In this document: positions 1 to 5,461 of the stretch, piece by piece
Numbering within the stretch: the stretch's first letter is position 1
Layout of the letters: every line of letters starts with the position of its first letter
Origin: Acidimicrobiia bacterium
GTDB lineage: Bacteria > Actinomycetota > Acidimicrobiia > Spongiisociales > ZC4RG35
Length of the DNA: 64,000 nt
Assembly (NCBI GenBank): GCA_028285585.1
Contig: JANQOU010000010.1
Location: 1-64,000 of the forward strand
Reading direction: 5' to 3'
Notes under the pieces: generated by a model
The model's input: the letters and a program-made list of their open reading frames with translations, nothing else
Databases searched by the model: none
Told to the model about the DNA's origin: nothing
Made by a program: the position numbers and the translations under genes

Positions 1-88
1 CTTCCCGGCATGGGCAACCAGGGCTTCCGAGGCAGTCAGGCCGATGGGCGACAGTGCACAACCGGAGGATCCGTTCGAGGATCTCTGA
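1..88 (+). CDS. possible C-terminal end of an upstream gene (partial)
   Basis: A reading frame enters from the left edge and stops at TGA 86-88. It gives about 28 residues with an acidic end (EDPFEDL). The short spacing to sbcD and the shared strand would fit an upstream member of the same repair operon. The piece is too short to assign. In archaea the partner of Mre11-Rad50-NurA is the HerA helicase, so HerA is the obvious candidate to test, but nothing visible here proves it. Confidence 0.25.
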   Translation, partial: FPAWATRASEAVRPMGDSAQPEDPFEDL

Positions 89-130
89 CACTCCTCAAAT
101 CTGTCCCATGCCCCTTTTACGATCTGGCAT

Positions 131-1261
131 GTGGCAGTGAAGATCCTTCACACGTCTGACTGGCATGTCGGGCGGCGGATTAGGGGCCGTGACCGGTCCG
201 ACGAGCATCGCGCCGTCCTCGACGAGCTGGTCGGTATCGCCGACGACAACAAAGTCGACCTGACTCTCGTTGCCGGTGATGTCTTCGACACGTCCTCGCC
301 GGCCCCGGTATCAGAGGAGATCGTCTGGAAGACGCTGCTCGACCTGGCCGCGATCGCTCCTGTCGCTGTGATCGGCGGCAACCACGACAACCAGCGTCGT
401 CTCGATGCGGTTGCCCCTCTACTGGAGCGGGCTGGGGTTGCAATGGTCGGCGCTCCCAAGTCCCGAGCCAAGGGCGGGTTGATCGATCTGGACGACGCCG
501 GGATCCGGGTGGCGATGCTGCCCTTCGTTTCCCAGCGCGGCATCGTCAAAGCCGAGCACATCATGTCTTATGAGCCCGACCAGCACGCCGGGGCGTTCGA
601 CGACCGGCTCCGCCAGCTGGTCGAGCTGCTCACAGAGGAGATGACCACCGACACGGTCAACATCCTGATGAGCCACCTCACGGTCTACGGGGCGGTCGCC
701 GGTGGGGGCGAGCGGCAGGCTCACATCTTTGGCTATGCCATACCTGCTTCGGCGTTCCCCGGTCATCTCAGCTACGTGGCTCTCGGTCACCTCCATCGGC
801 AGCAGAAGATGCCCCATTCCGGAGCGGTCTGGTACTCGGGGTCGCCACTTCAACTCGACTTCGGAGAGGTGGACGACGCCAAGGGAGTGCTCCTGGTGGA
901 GGCCGAGCCCGGTCTGCCGGCCAAGGTGACCTCCGTGCCACTCAACGCCGGGAAGCGTCTCGCCACTCTCACCGGGACTCTCGCCGAGGTGGCGTCGAGG
1001 GCCGACGAGGTGGCTGATGCCTATGTGAAAGTGGTGCTCACCGAGTCGGCGCGGGTGGGGCTCGCCGACGAGGTTCGCTCGGTGATCCCCGGTGCGGTCG
1101 ACATCCTCCTCCAGGGTGCCGATCCGGTCAGGCAAACCCGTGAGCCGAGGCAGTCGCTGCAACCCCAGGAGGGGTTCAAGACGTATCTCGAAGAGAGAGG
1201 CAGCCATGACGAGCGTGTCGAGTCGCTGTTCGCCGAGCTGCTGGACGAGGTCTCGGTATGA
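131..1261 (+). CDS. sbcD: SbcD/Mre11-type exonuclease subunit
   Basis: Nuclease subunit of the SbcCD (Mre11-Rad50) complex, which trims DNA ends and opens hairpins. The metallophosphoesterase motifs are in order: SDWH at residues 9-12, AGDVFD at 48-53, GNHD at 83-86, then MSHL and GHLH, the metal-binding set of the family. Its 376 residues fit the family (about 340-420). It begins at GTG 131, and its TGA overlaps the sbcC ATG by four bases, so the two are translationally coupled. The C-terminal part is the expected capping domain. The assignment is firm. Confidence 0.95.
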   Translation: MAVKILHTSDWHVGRRIRGRDRSDEHRAVLDELVGIADDNKVDLTLVAGDVFDTSSPAPVSEEIVWKTLLDLAAIAPVAVIGGNHDNQRRLDAVAPLLERAGVAMVGAPKSRAKGGLIDLDDAGIRVAMLPFVSQRGIVKAEHIMSYEPDQHAGAFDDRLRQLVELLTEEMTTDTVNILMSHLTVYGAVAGGGERQAHIFGYAIPASAFPGHLSYVALGHLHRQQKMPHSGAVWYSGSPLQLDFGEVDDAKGVLLVEAEPGLPAKVTSVPLNAGKRLATLTGTLAEVASRADEVADAYVKVVLTESARVGLADEVRSVIPGAVDILLQGADPVRQTREPRQSLQPQEGFKTYLEERGSHDERVESLFAELLDEVSV

Positions 1262-3651
1262 GACCGGTGAGGATCCGCGCCGAGGGGTTCGCTGCATACC
1301 GCAAGCCGGTCGACATCGACTTCACCGACGTCGAGTTCTTCTCGTTGAGTGGCCCGACCGGCTCCGGCAAGTCGAGCCTCATCGACGCCATGGTGTTCGC
1401 CCTCTTCGGCCGGGTGCCTCGTCTCGGTGGCAACTCGGTCGCACCGGCGATAAGTGTCGGCATGGATGCCGCCAAGGTCGCCTTCGACTTCGAGGTCGAT
1501 GACGTCACCTACACCGCGGTGCGAAGAGCCGACCGCACCGGGTCGGGCGCTTCGGTCAAGGAGGCCCGTCTCCAGATAGGCGAGAAGGTGGTTGCCGACG
1601 GTGCTGCCGAGGTCACCGATGAAGTCGAGTCGGTCCTCCGTCTCCGCTTCGACGACTTCATCCGGACTGTTGTGCTGCCCCAAGGTGAGTTCGCTCGTTT
1701 CCTCAGTGCGGGGAAGGCGGAGCGCCAGGCTCTGCTGCGCAGCCTGCTCGGCCTCGACATCTACCAAGAGGTCCGCACGCTGGCCAGGTCGCGGGCCGAG
1801 GTGGCTTCCGAGCGCGCCTCCATCGCCAGCCAGTCTCTAGCCGGCCTCGCCGTCGCCACCCCTGAGGAGGCGGAAGAGGCGGAGAGCCGTCTCGAGGCGC
1901 TGCAAGATCTCGACTCCAAGATTGCCGATGAGGAAAGGTCCCTCGCTGAGAGCGAGGTGGCCGTCGATCAGGTGCGTGGTGAGCTGGAATCTCTTGCCGG
2001 TGCGATCAAGCGTCTCACCGCCATCGAGGCTCCCGAGGACCTTGCCGACATCGACCGGCTCACCGGCGAGGCCAGGGAAGCCGTGGGTATTGCCGAGGCG
2101 CAAGTAGCGAAGGTCACCGACGAGGTCGCTGCGATCGAAGATGAGCTGGGCCAGATGCTCAGTCTCGACCGGGTCAACGATCTGAAGTCGGACTTCGAGG
2201 AGCTGACGAAAGTGGAGGCCGAGCTGGCCGGCACCGATCTCTCCGAGGCTGTTTCAGGATTGGAAGCTGCGGAGAAGGGCCACGAGTCGGCGGTGGCCAC
2301 CCTCAGTTCGGCTAGGGAAAGGCTCGACCAGACCAGGGTCTCCCACGCCGCTCATGCCCTGGCCGAGACTCTTGTCGAGGGCGAGCCGTGCCCGGTGTGC
2401 AGCCAAACCGTGAGCACGGTCGGGACCTTGGAGACACCGGCCGTGTTGGAGCAGGTGGAGGCAGAGGTCGCCGCTGCTGATTCGGAGGTGGCGACAGCAC
2501 GGTCAAACCTGGACAAGGCCCGTGACCATCACAGCCGGCTCGAGGCCGTGGCCGGGCAGCTGACTGAACGCGTCAAGGCTCTCAAAGGTCGGGTTGCCGA
2601 GGCTCCTGCCTTGGACGCTCTCGCCAAGATCGAGCTTCGCCACACCGAGCTGACCAAGGATCTTGCCGGCAAGCGGGCTGCTCTTGGCGATGCCGGTGAT
2701 GGGTTGAAAGCGGCTCAGCGACGCCTCGAAGACCTGGCCGACTCGGCGAGACAGGTGGAGCGTCGGCTCACCGCGGCTCAGCTGGAAGTGGCCGACCTCA
2801 ACCCCCCGCTGTCCGAGTCGGACGATGTCGTAGTCAAGTGGAAAGACCTGATCCTCTGGCGCGAAGAGAAGTCAGAAGAGCTGAACAGGTCACACGGTGA
2901 GGCCACCAAGGCTCTCGTCGAAGCCGAGAAGACGGCGACAACTCTCAGGGTCGAGATAGTCGCTCGACTCGAGAAGCTCGGAGTGGAGCAGGTCGAGCCG
3001 TACTCGGCACGGGTCGCCGCCGCACGCGAACAGGCCCGGCAAGTGGTCGAGCAGCACAAGGCCGCTGCTGCCGAGAAAACTCGGCTCGAAGCCGAGATCA
3101 AAGAAGCCTCCGAGAAGGCGGCTGTCGCCGAATCCCTGGCCGGTCATCTCCGCTCGGACGGCTTCGAGCGGTGGCTGATGTCAGGTGCCATCACCGAGCT
3201 GGTCCACGGAGCCAACGACATCCTCGACGAGCTGACCGCCGGCGGGTACTCCCTCCACAGCGACGAAAGTGGTTCGTTCTCGATCGTCGACCATCGCAAC
3301 GCCGACGAGTTGCGCCCAGTGGCCACCTTGTCAGGAGGCGAGACGTTCCTCGTCTCGTTGGCGTTGGCCCTTTCCCTGGCCGAGACGCTGTCGGCGGCCG
3401 GCGGGGCGAAACTCGACACCATCATCCTCGACGAGGGCTTCGGCACCCTCGACGACGAGTCACTGGAGACGGTGGCATCGATACTCGAGGAGCTGTCCGG
3501 TGAAGGGCTGACCGTCGGTGTGATCACACATGTCAAAGAGCTTGCGGCTCGTGCCCCGGTGCGGTTCGAGGTGTCCAAAGAGCCCGACGGTTCGACTGTG
3601 AAAGACGTGTCCGACGATGTCGACGGGTCGAGAGTGAGGTCGGCCTCGTGA
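1258..3651 (+). CDS. sbcC: SbcC/Rad50-type SMC-like ATPase subunit
   Basis: ATPase partner of SbcD. Walker A (GPTGSGKS) is at residues 32-39. A long charged coiled coil fills the middle, with the zinc hook CPVC at residues 378-381. The ABC signature LSGGE is near 691-695 and Walker B with the catalytic glutamate (ILDEG) near 724-728. At 797 residues it is shorter than E. coli SbcC (over 1000), mainly through a shorter coiled coil. The last four bases overlap the next gene, so sbcD, sbcC and the nurA-like gene form one operon. Confidence 0.95.
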   Translation: MRPVRIRAEGFAAYRKPVDIDFTDVEFFSLSGPTGSGKSSLIDAMVFALFGRVPRLGGNSVAPAISVGMDAAKVAFDFEVDDVTYTAVRRADRTGSGASVKEARLQIGEKVVADGAAEVTDEVESVLRLRFDDFIRTVVLPQGEFARFLSAGKAERQALLRSLLGLDIYQEVRTLARSRAEVASERASIASQSLAGLAVATPEEAEEAESRLEALQDLDSKIADEERSLAESEVAVDQVRGELESLAGAIKRLTAIEAPEDLADIDRLTGEAREAVGIAEAQVAKVTDEVAAIEDELGQMLSLDRVNDLKSDFEELTKVEAELAGTDLSEAVSGLEAAEKGHESAVATLSSARERLDQTRVSHAAHALAETLVEGEPCPVCSQTVSTVGTLETPAVLEQVEAEVAAADSEVATARSNLDKARDHHSRLEAVAGQLTERVKALKGRVAEAPALDALAKIELRHTELTKDLAGKRAALGDAGDGLKAAQRRLEDLADSARQVERRLTAAQLEVADLNPPLSESDDVVVKWKDLILWREEKSEELNRSHGEATKALVEAEKTATTLRVEIVARLEKLGVEQVEPYSARVAAAREQARQVVEQHKAAAAEKTRLEAEIKEASEKAAVAESLAGHLRSDGFERWLMSGAITELVHGANDILDELTAGGYSLHSDESGSFSIVDHRNADELRPVATLSGGETFLVSLALALSLAETLSAAGGAKLDTIILDEGFGTLDDESLETVASILEELSGEGLTVGVITHVKELAARAPVRFEVSKEPDGSTVKDVSDDVDGSRVRSAS

Positions 3652-4559
3652 AGTTCACGGTCGAAGCCTGGGACTCCGACTACGGAGCCCCCACCGAAGC
3701 AGAGCTCGACGACGCCTCGCAGTCGGTCGACCCGAGTGTCGAGGTCGCCCCTGACGATTGGCGACCCTTGCTGCCAGAGACAGAGCCTGTCGATGACGTG
3801 CTCTTCGTCGACGGGGTGCGTCGTGTCGACGCCACCCTTTGGATCGACAAGCCACCCGACTTCCCTGCATTTGCCCTCGCCGCCACCTACGCCGCCGGTG
3901 CCGTCAGGTGCAACGGCTCGGCAGAGTTGGAGGTCGCCGAAGTGGGCCGGGGGCTGTTCACGTCCGCGCCCGCGATCGACATCGCCACCGGGGTCGGCAC
4001 CTACGAGGTGAAGGCGACCAAGGGTACGACCTCCGAGGAGCTGTGGCTGGGGATCCAGCAACGCATGGGCGACCTGGAGGCCAAGGTGGCCCGGGAGGCA
4101 GGGGGTGGCGAGCTGATGATCGTTGACGGCCCGCTGTCGCATGCCCGTGACATCGACAACGCCGTCGGCTACATCAAGACTCAGAAGGTCCAGTATCTGC
4201 CCGTGGAGCTCCGGTCGGTGCTGACCTCGCTCCCAGCCGGATACCGAACGCCGCTGTTCCTCACCACCACCTCGTGGAGCCGGTTCTCCTGGTATCTGCG
4301 GCTGGCCAACCATGCCGGGCCCGCCGGCGGCCTCGTCCGTTGTGAGGTCGACGCCAACCAGTCGGCTGCCGATGCGGCCCGGGTTGCGACCCGGGTCAGC
4401 GCGACTCTGCCCAGGTATGCGTCGGCCCGTCACAAGGACCCGCGTGCCCCGCAAAACCTCTACCCGATCGGCGGGTTGGAGCGTGAGCTACGTCGTCGTC
4501 TCGGCGACAAGGAGCTGGCGATGCGATCTCTCCGCCGGACTTCGACCCTCGTTGCCTAG
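3648..4559 (+). CDS. nurA: NurA-like DNA repair nuclease
   Basis: Probable 5'-3' nuclease of the NurA family, which in archaea works with HerA and Mre11-Rad50 in end resection. The family pattern is visible: FVDGVRR with an acidic residue at D55, then the strand-aspartate motif LMIVDGPLSH with D160, then GYIKTQ just after it, as in NurA proteins. Its length, 303 residues, is normal. It starts at GTG 3648, inside the sbcC stop region, so it is coupled to sbcC. It converges on the EamA gene with a four-base overlap. The family call rests on motifs, not on alignment. Confidence 0.75.
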   Translation: MKFTVEAWDSDYGAPTEAELDDASQSVDPSVEVAPDDWRPLLPETEPVDDVLFVDGVRRVDATLWIDKPPDFPAFALAATYAAGAVRCNGSAELEVAEVGRGLFTSAPAIDIATGVGTYEVKATKGTTSEELWLGIQQRMGDLEAKVAREAGGGELMIVDGPLSHARDIDNAVGYIKTQKVQYLPVELRSVLTSLPAGYRTPLFLTTTSWSRFSWYLRLANHAGPAGGLVRCEVDANQSAADAARVATRVSATLPRYASARHKDPRAPQNLYPIGGLERELRRRLGDKELAMRSLRRTSTLVA

Positions 4560-5461
4560 ATCTCCCGGCGCGACGCGAGGAACGCGCCGACGATCACCAG
4601 CGCCACACCTCCGATGGCGATGGGTGCGACCTGCTCGTCTCGGAACACCACGCCGAGGGCCAGGGCGACGACCGGGATGATGTAGGTGATGAAGGCGGCA
4701 CGGGTGGCTCCCACGCTTCCTGCCAGTTTGCCCATCATGTAGAAGGCGATCCCCGCTCCGGCGACGCCGACCGCGAGAGAGGCGAGCAGCGACGGCCACG
4801 CGAAAGACGACTGGGTCAGCCCGTAGATTCCGAAGGGGGTGACCAAGATCGTCGCCGTCCACAGGATGTATCTCATCACCGGCATCGACCCGTACTTCTG
4901 GGTGATGGGGGTGACCATGTTCAGTGAGACCGCATAGCAACCCGTGGCGGCGATCACCATCACCACACCGATGGCGGCTGTGGTGCTCTCGCCGGCCGAG
5001 GGGAGAGCGATGGCCACGATTCCAGCGAACCCCACCAGGAGCCCAATCATCTGAAGACGCCGGGGGAGGCTCTTGAGGAGGATCGTGGCGAGAAGGGCAG
5101 TGAGGATCGGTGTCGCCCCGTTGAGCATCCCGGCGACGGCCGAGTCGATCCACTGCTGGGCGATTGGGAACAGCGTGAGTGGGATCGCAACCCAGATCAG
5201 CCCGAGGGTGCGGACTTTCGGCAGGTCCTCACCGCTGATCCTGGTTTGCCGCGCCTGAGCGAACATGCTGATCGTGATGGCGCCGAAGCTGATCCTGATC
5301 CAGGTGACCAGGCCGGGGTGGAACGCGTCGAGGCCGATCGCCATGAGGAGGAACGAGGCGCCCCATATCAGCGACAGGCCCATGAACAGGACCCAGTCCG
5401 AAAGCGTGAACGCTGCACGGTTGGTGCCGTGTGAAGTTGAGATGAGAGGTGTTGAGGACAT
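4556..5461 (-). CDS. EamA/DMT-family membrane transporter
   Basis: Inner-membrane protein of the drug/metabolite transporter superfamily, usually a metabolite exporter. About ten hydrophobic segments are visible in 301 residues, arranged as two repeats of five. The first begins with the typical LIWGASFLLMAIGL and the second contains TPILTALLATILL-like segments. The substrate cannot be read from the sequence. It stands alone on the minus strand. Confidence 0.85.
   Translation of the reverse strand: MSSTPLISTSHGTNRAAFTLSDWVLFMGLSLIWGASFLLMAIGLDAFHPGLVTWIRISFGAITISMFAQARQTRISGEDLPKVRTLGLIWVAIPLTLFPIAQQWIDSAVAGMLNGATPILTALLATILLKSLPRRLQMIGLLVGFAGIVAIALPSAGESTTAAIGVVMVIAATGCYAVSLNMVTPITQKYGSMPVMRYILWTATILVTPFGIYGLTQSSFAWPSLLASLAVGVAGAGIAFYMMGKLAGSVGATRAAFITYIIPVVALALGVVFRDEQVAPIAIGGVALVIVGAFLASRREI

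Follow-up and report, generated by a model that had tools for sequence, protein, structure and literature searches.

A predicted herA-sbcD-sbcC-nurA operon with archaeal gene order and bacterial-type proteins in an acidimicrobial chromosome

Gene arrangement at the locus

The stretch of DNA analysed here, called the window, comprises 64,000 nucleotides and is contig C12 read from base 1, in a source genome of 2.59 Mb assembled into 14 contigs. Near its left end lie three genes on the forward strand: sbcD for an Mre11-type nuclease (131-1261, GTG start, 376 aa), sbcC for a Rad50-type ATPase (1258-3651, 797 aa) and nurA for a predicted NurA nuclease of bacterial type (3648-4559, 303 aa). Their junctions are 4-base overlaps, ATGA and GTGA, and the three reading frames lie where the first-pass annotation had placed them. 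A gene for an EamA-family transporter (4556-5461, reverse strand; present in the open reading frame list and matching PF00892 at 1.2e-27) stands tail-to-tail with nurA, which makes nurA the right boundary of the operon.

Ahead of sbcD, an open frame of 28 codons and a stop occupies bases 1-88 of the forward strand, 42 bases before the sbcD start at 131. It had been noted as the tail of an unseen gene, possibly a missing helicase to the left of the window. The frame is real and matches HerA across all 28 residues; in relatives it forms the C-terminus of a protein about 555 residues long. The assembly holds nothing to the left, as base 1 of the window is also base 1 of the contig, and the complete herA gene (559 aa) was found on another contig, C11, on the minus strand (G000:C11:12-1691). 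Window positions 1-99 are identical to the reverse complement of the final 99 bases of C11, and the herA stop lies 11 bases inside the C11 end, from which we infer that C11 and C12 are neighbouring contigs of one assembly graph. Spanned by no single contig, the herA-sbcD junction in the source genome is based on this overlap and on synteny in relatives, where the four genes were adjacent, on one strand, on unbroken single contigs. Read in this way, the locus is a predicted chromosomal operon, herA-sbcD-sbcC-nurA, with archaeal gene content and order and with proteins of bacterial type. The overlaps and the 42-base gap are compatible with co-transcription of the four genes. On C11, herA is adjoined on the opposite strand by a mannosylglycerate synthase gene for compatible-solute synthesis (L051:1716-2885).

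Identity of the four proteins

SbcD passed its bacterial model TIGR00619 with 176.7 bits (E 7e-52, cut-off 77.65), against 51 bits or less with archaeal models, and the phosphoesterase motifs DxH, GDxxD, GNHD, SH and GHxH were all intact. SbcC matched TIGR00618 at E 4e-80, its 270 bits staying under the cut-off of 478.5 for a protein of 797 aa on a model of 1043 positions; its motifs were complete, with Walker A at residue 32, a CPVC zinc hook at 378, the LSGGE signature at 691 and Walker B at about 723. One genome carried sbcD twice, with 66 and 63% identity to that of the window, and herA ends likewise twice (G001:C228 and C254), representing either a duplication or mixed strains.

The third protein, read at first pass as NurA-like, exceeded the cut-off of Pfam NurA PF09376 (25.7 bits against 21). 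In phmmer comparisons it aligned over nearly its full length with Deinococcus radiodurans NurA (7f6d; E 4.7e-20) and matched Thermotoga TM1739 at E 1.3e-5. Its AlphaFold model, of moderate quality (mean pLDDT 75.5, the five models uneven), had 7f6d and 1zup as best structures, with an RNase H-like NurA fold in 7f6d_G (E 1.8e-16, TM 0.69) and E 3.9e-15 for 1zup. Residues D55, K177 and R266 aligned with D53, K201 and R309 of Deinococcus NurA, as mapped by hand counting with a PDB chain offset of 20; the latter are the residues mutated in the Deinococcus study (PMC9960219). All three, as well as Trp8, were invariant in ten aligned sequences. By sequence and predicted fold, the gene product is a NurA nuclease.

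The HerA of a relative (L040), 87% identical to that of the source genome, matched D. radiodurans HerA (7f6d_B) over nearly its whole length at E 2.6e-143. The source genome's own HerA carries the P-loop GISGVATKTS and the Walker B DE as in the solved Deinococcus enzyme, in which K175, T176, D487 and E488 are the P-loop and Walker B residues and the P-loop lysine touches phosphate (PMC9960219). By these alignments, the upstream gene is herA, an ortholog of the Deinococcus gene. Archaeal HerA models gave E values of only 0.004-0.09, and the archaeal-type equivalogs NF040819 (15.9 bits, cut-off 970) and NF040937 (14.9 bits, cut-off 800) scored far too low. For the N-terminal HAS-barrel, PF09378 reached 16.5 bits at best (cut-off 25.2); this region aligned with the Deinococcus N-terminal domain. 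Pfam and NCBIfam models did not call HerA in this protein, and Pfam DUF87 matches elsewhere in the source genome were rejected as not being the true HerA. At one locus (L102:7015-8806, G284:C5) herA was broken into several frames by gene decay or sequencing errors, while sbcD, sbcC and nurA beside it were intact.

Distribution and gene order

The gene set was surveyed in 60 related genomes, mostly Acidimicrobiia, 43 of them of good quality. Own profiles were used, since Pfam NurA was too insensitive across the class (5 of 148 genomes). NurA and HerA were each found in 51 of the 60. In the good-quality genomes, HerA and a strong SbcD were both present in 35 and both absent in 8 (G023, G028, G030, G032, G033, G048, G053 and G054), a count that leaves out weak partial SbcD matches in four of the eight. 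The double absences sit in four genera and therefore represent several independent events rather than eight. NurA accompanied the other two in 34 of the 35 genomes; the exception, G027, may perhaps be explained by a contig break.

In a sample of 296 genomes from the phylum, 91 passed the HerA search, 67 of them strongly and outside family f47, while the 24 divergent ones all belonged to f47. The SbcD model was positive in 64 of the 67 genomes with strong HerA against 56 of the 229 others. Both divergent f47 loci that were read (L091, L092) contained a full nurA-herA-sbcD-sbcC set, strongly diverged, and in at least one f47 genome the SbcD of the set was missed by the model. One genome, G313, harboured two four-gene sets (L096 on C33, L097 on C15), the second far more divergent in all four genes.

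The survey of the operon across genomes, as proposed at first pass, showed the arrangement to be a recurrent one: all four genes occurred in 41 of the 51 loci read, and most of the remainder were cut by a contig edge or by the edge of the retrieved region. HerA stood alone in three. The four genes were on the same strand in most loci, and some had at least one unrelated gene between herA and sbcD. Distance matrices of the four genes agreed (Spearman 0.70-0.90, no permutation as high), for which a shared species history alone would suffice.

Two gene orders predominated, nurA-herA-sbcD-sbcC in 22 loci and herA-sbcD-sbcC-nurA in 19. On the HerA tree, which was midpoint-rooted, had some long branches and was built from bacterial sequences, few order changes were needed (two in the simplest count), and nurA-first was spread across the deeper branches. 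In Thermus and Oceanithermus nurA also precedes herA (PMC5448004). The order of the window thus seems to have derived within bacteria from nurA-herA-sbcD-sbcC, with nurA moved from front to back.

Beyond the phylum sample, the complete set was found in Nonomuraea, in the cyanobacterium Sphaerospermopsis, where a conjugative plasmid carries it, and on a plasmid of Streptomyces sp. BB1-1-1 (L107:1-15447), where herA-sbcD-sbcC-nurA runs divergently from an adjoining Wadjet-type locus (JetA and JetB models) and an ImmA/IrrE-family gene. Marinitoga camini virus 1 has a nurA-herA pair without sbcCD beside it (L110:2639-5347).

The source genome also encodes AdnA and AdnB, a pair matching the mycobacterial structures, and the PDDEXK_1 domain, of the AdnAB/RecBCD enzyme class, was detected in each of the 60 relatives, whether HerA was there or not. 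HerA-NurA as a replacement of AdnAB/RecBCD was ruled out on these two grounds. Since AdnAB is present, the four-gene set would not be the sole end-processing machine of the cell, and would act beside AdnAB.

Discussion

Of the likeness to archaea that the first-pass annotation put forward, a resection machine of archaeal design, only the gene content and order stand up; for HerA, NurA and SbcD, bacterial-type relatives are much better matches than the archaeal models. The herA-mre11-rad50-nurA operon, described in Sulfolobus (PMC4351679, PMC2288612) and kept by heat-loving archaea, shares with the window the four protein kinds, their order, the single strand and the tight spacing. The operon of the window differs in that it combines SbcD and SbcC with HerA and NurA of Deinococcus type, coexists with AdnAB and has an order apparently derived within bacteria. 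The identity between archaeal and bacterial forms of these proteins is under 20% (PMC9960219). Identical content and order could mean that this bacterium acquired the archaeal operon recently, and one paper does propose an archaeal source for the herA-nurA of Deinococcus-Thermus (PMC12977600). We nevertheless rejected transfer as very improbable because of the profile scores, in which SbcD reached 177 bits with the bacterial model and HerA about 1e-143 with the Deinococcus enzyme, far beyond the archaeal models; the variable order within bacteria and the broad distribution speak against it as well. As the order seems to have been derived within bacteria, the archaeal likeness is probably convergent.

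Bacterial relatives of the system are partly known. In D. radiodurans (7f6d; PMC9960219) HerA is orthologous and shares the unusual P-loop, and the key residues of NurA match; published accounts give that operon as a nurA-herA pair, in a phylum without RecBCD/AddAB, whereas the window has SbcCD in the operon and AdnAB in the genome. Oceanithermus profundus likewise has a bacterial four-gene cluster, nurA-hepA-sbcD-sbcC, but with nurA first and in another phylum; sbcD and sbcC downstream of hepA were reported there in one sentence (PMC5448004). Our literature search, which covered few subscription papers, found no other published bacterial four-gene precedent, and a prior actinobacterial description is possible. 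The antiviral Sir2-HerA, DUF4297-HerA and TdpAB systems are similar in that a HerA-type motor drives a partner nuclease; they differ in the partner, which is another nuclease or NurA-like but divergent, and in having a HerA only weakly related to that of the window. To our knowledge, SbcCD is not part of any of them.

The four protein identities, the intact catalytic motifs, the conserved clustering and the shared pattern in which HerA and SbcD are present or missing suggest that the operon probably encodes a machine of bacterial proteins for processing DNA ends and hairpins. SbcCD would bind and open blocked or hairpin ends, a HerA hexamer would then pump the duplex into a NurA dimer, and the dimer would digest the strands, so that either a 3' single strand is left on which RecA can act or the DNA is cleared. 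We infer the hexamer, the dimer, digestion coupled to translocation and co-operation with SbcCD from studies of D. radiodurans and archaea. The known activities of the parts favour end and hairpin processing by SbcCD plus HerA-NurA, with each step of their co-operation putative. Direct binding of Mre11 to HerA was reported in Sulfolobus (PMC2288612). A role of the set in resection is likely. Against the end-processing reading counts the deletion of nurA and herA in D. radiodurans, which made the cells more tolerant of mitomycin C and UV, with weak resection in vitro (PMC9960219), and a recent archaeal study doubts the resection role (PMC12977600). The gene losses among relatives, moreover, represent few independent events.

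The four genes might also stay together by tradition only, SbcCD and HerA-NurA being co-expressed while serving separate pathways. The Thermus nurA-hepA pair, whose genomic surroundings have no link to DNA metabolism (PMC5448004), the Marinitoga virus pair with no adjoining sbcCD, and the 56 sampled Actinomycetota that have SbcD without strong HerA are in line with this, whereas a linkage that survived rearrangement of the gene order and the coupled occurrence of HerA and SbcD in relatives are not, and we regard it as unlikely. We find it similarly improbable that the HerA-NurA pump and SbcCD serve in defence, breaking down invading or abnormal DNA instead of making chromosome ends ready for recombination. 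Bacterial antiviral systems do pair HerA with nucleases of other kinds (PMC12977600), the HerA studied here gave weak matches to the PADLOC HerA and mad8 models, the NurA model weakly matched a chain of the solved TdpAB complex (8wfd, E 1e-4), and quartets sit on the cyanobacterial conjugative plasmid and, next to the JetA/JetB-matching genes, on the Streptomyces plasmid. In the lineage of the window, however, the set is mostly single-copy and syntenic, with concordant gene distances, and is kept across genera and families; its downstream neighbours are ordinary (EamA, gpsA, ychF), and NurA matched no PADLOC model. The end-processing reading is the one that we prefer.

According to published accounts, NurA-HerA occurs in only a few bacteria without RecBCD, Deinococcus-Thermus among them, and has a controversial role (PMC9960219, PMC11442139). 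The set stayed hidden because curated models miss HerA and mostly miss NurA; in one Streptomyces the pair is annotated as 'ATP-binding protein' and 'hypothetical protein'. It is conceivable, though we hold this wider claim only tentatively, that HerA, NurA and SbcCD make up a single, obligate machine of four proteins in much of Actinomycetota and on some cyanobacterial plasmids, beside AdnAB, that the archaeal order arose separately in bacteria, and that the published view of the pair as a rarity of Deinococcus-Thermus bacteria without RecBCD is wrong. In many Actinomycetota, a range wider than in the literature found, the NurA-HerA pair and SbcCD lie in one cluster, and the genomes checked for AdnAB encode it too.
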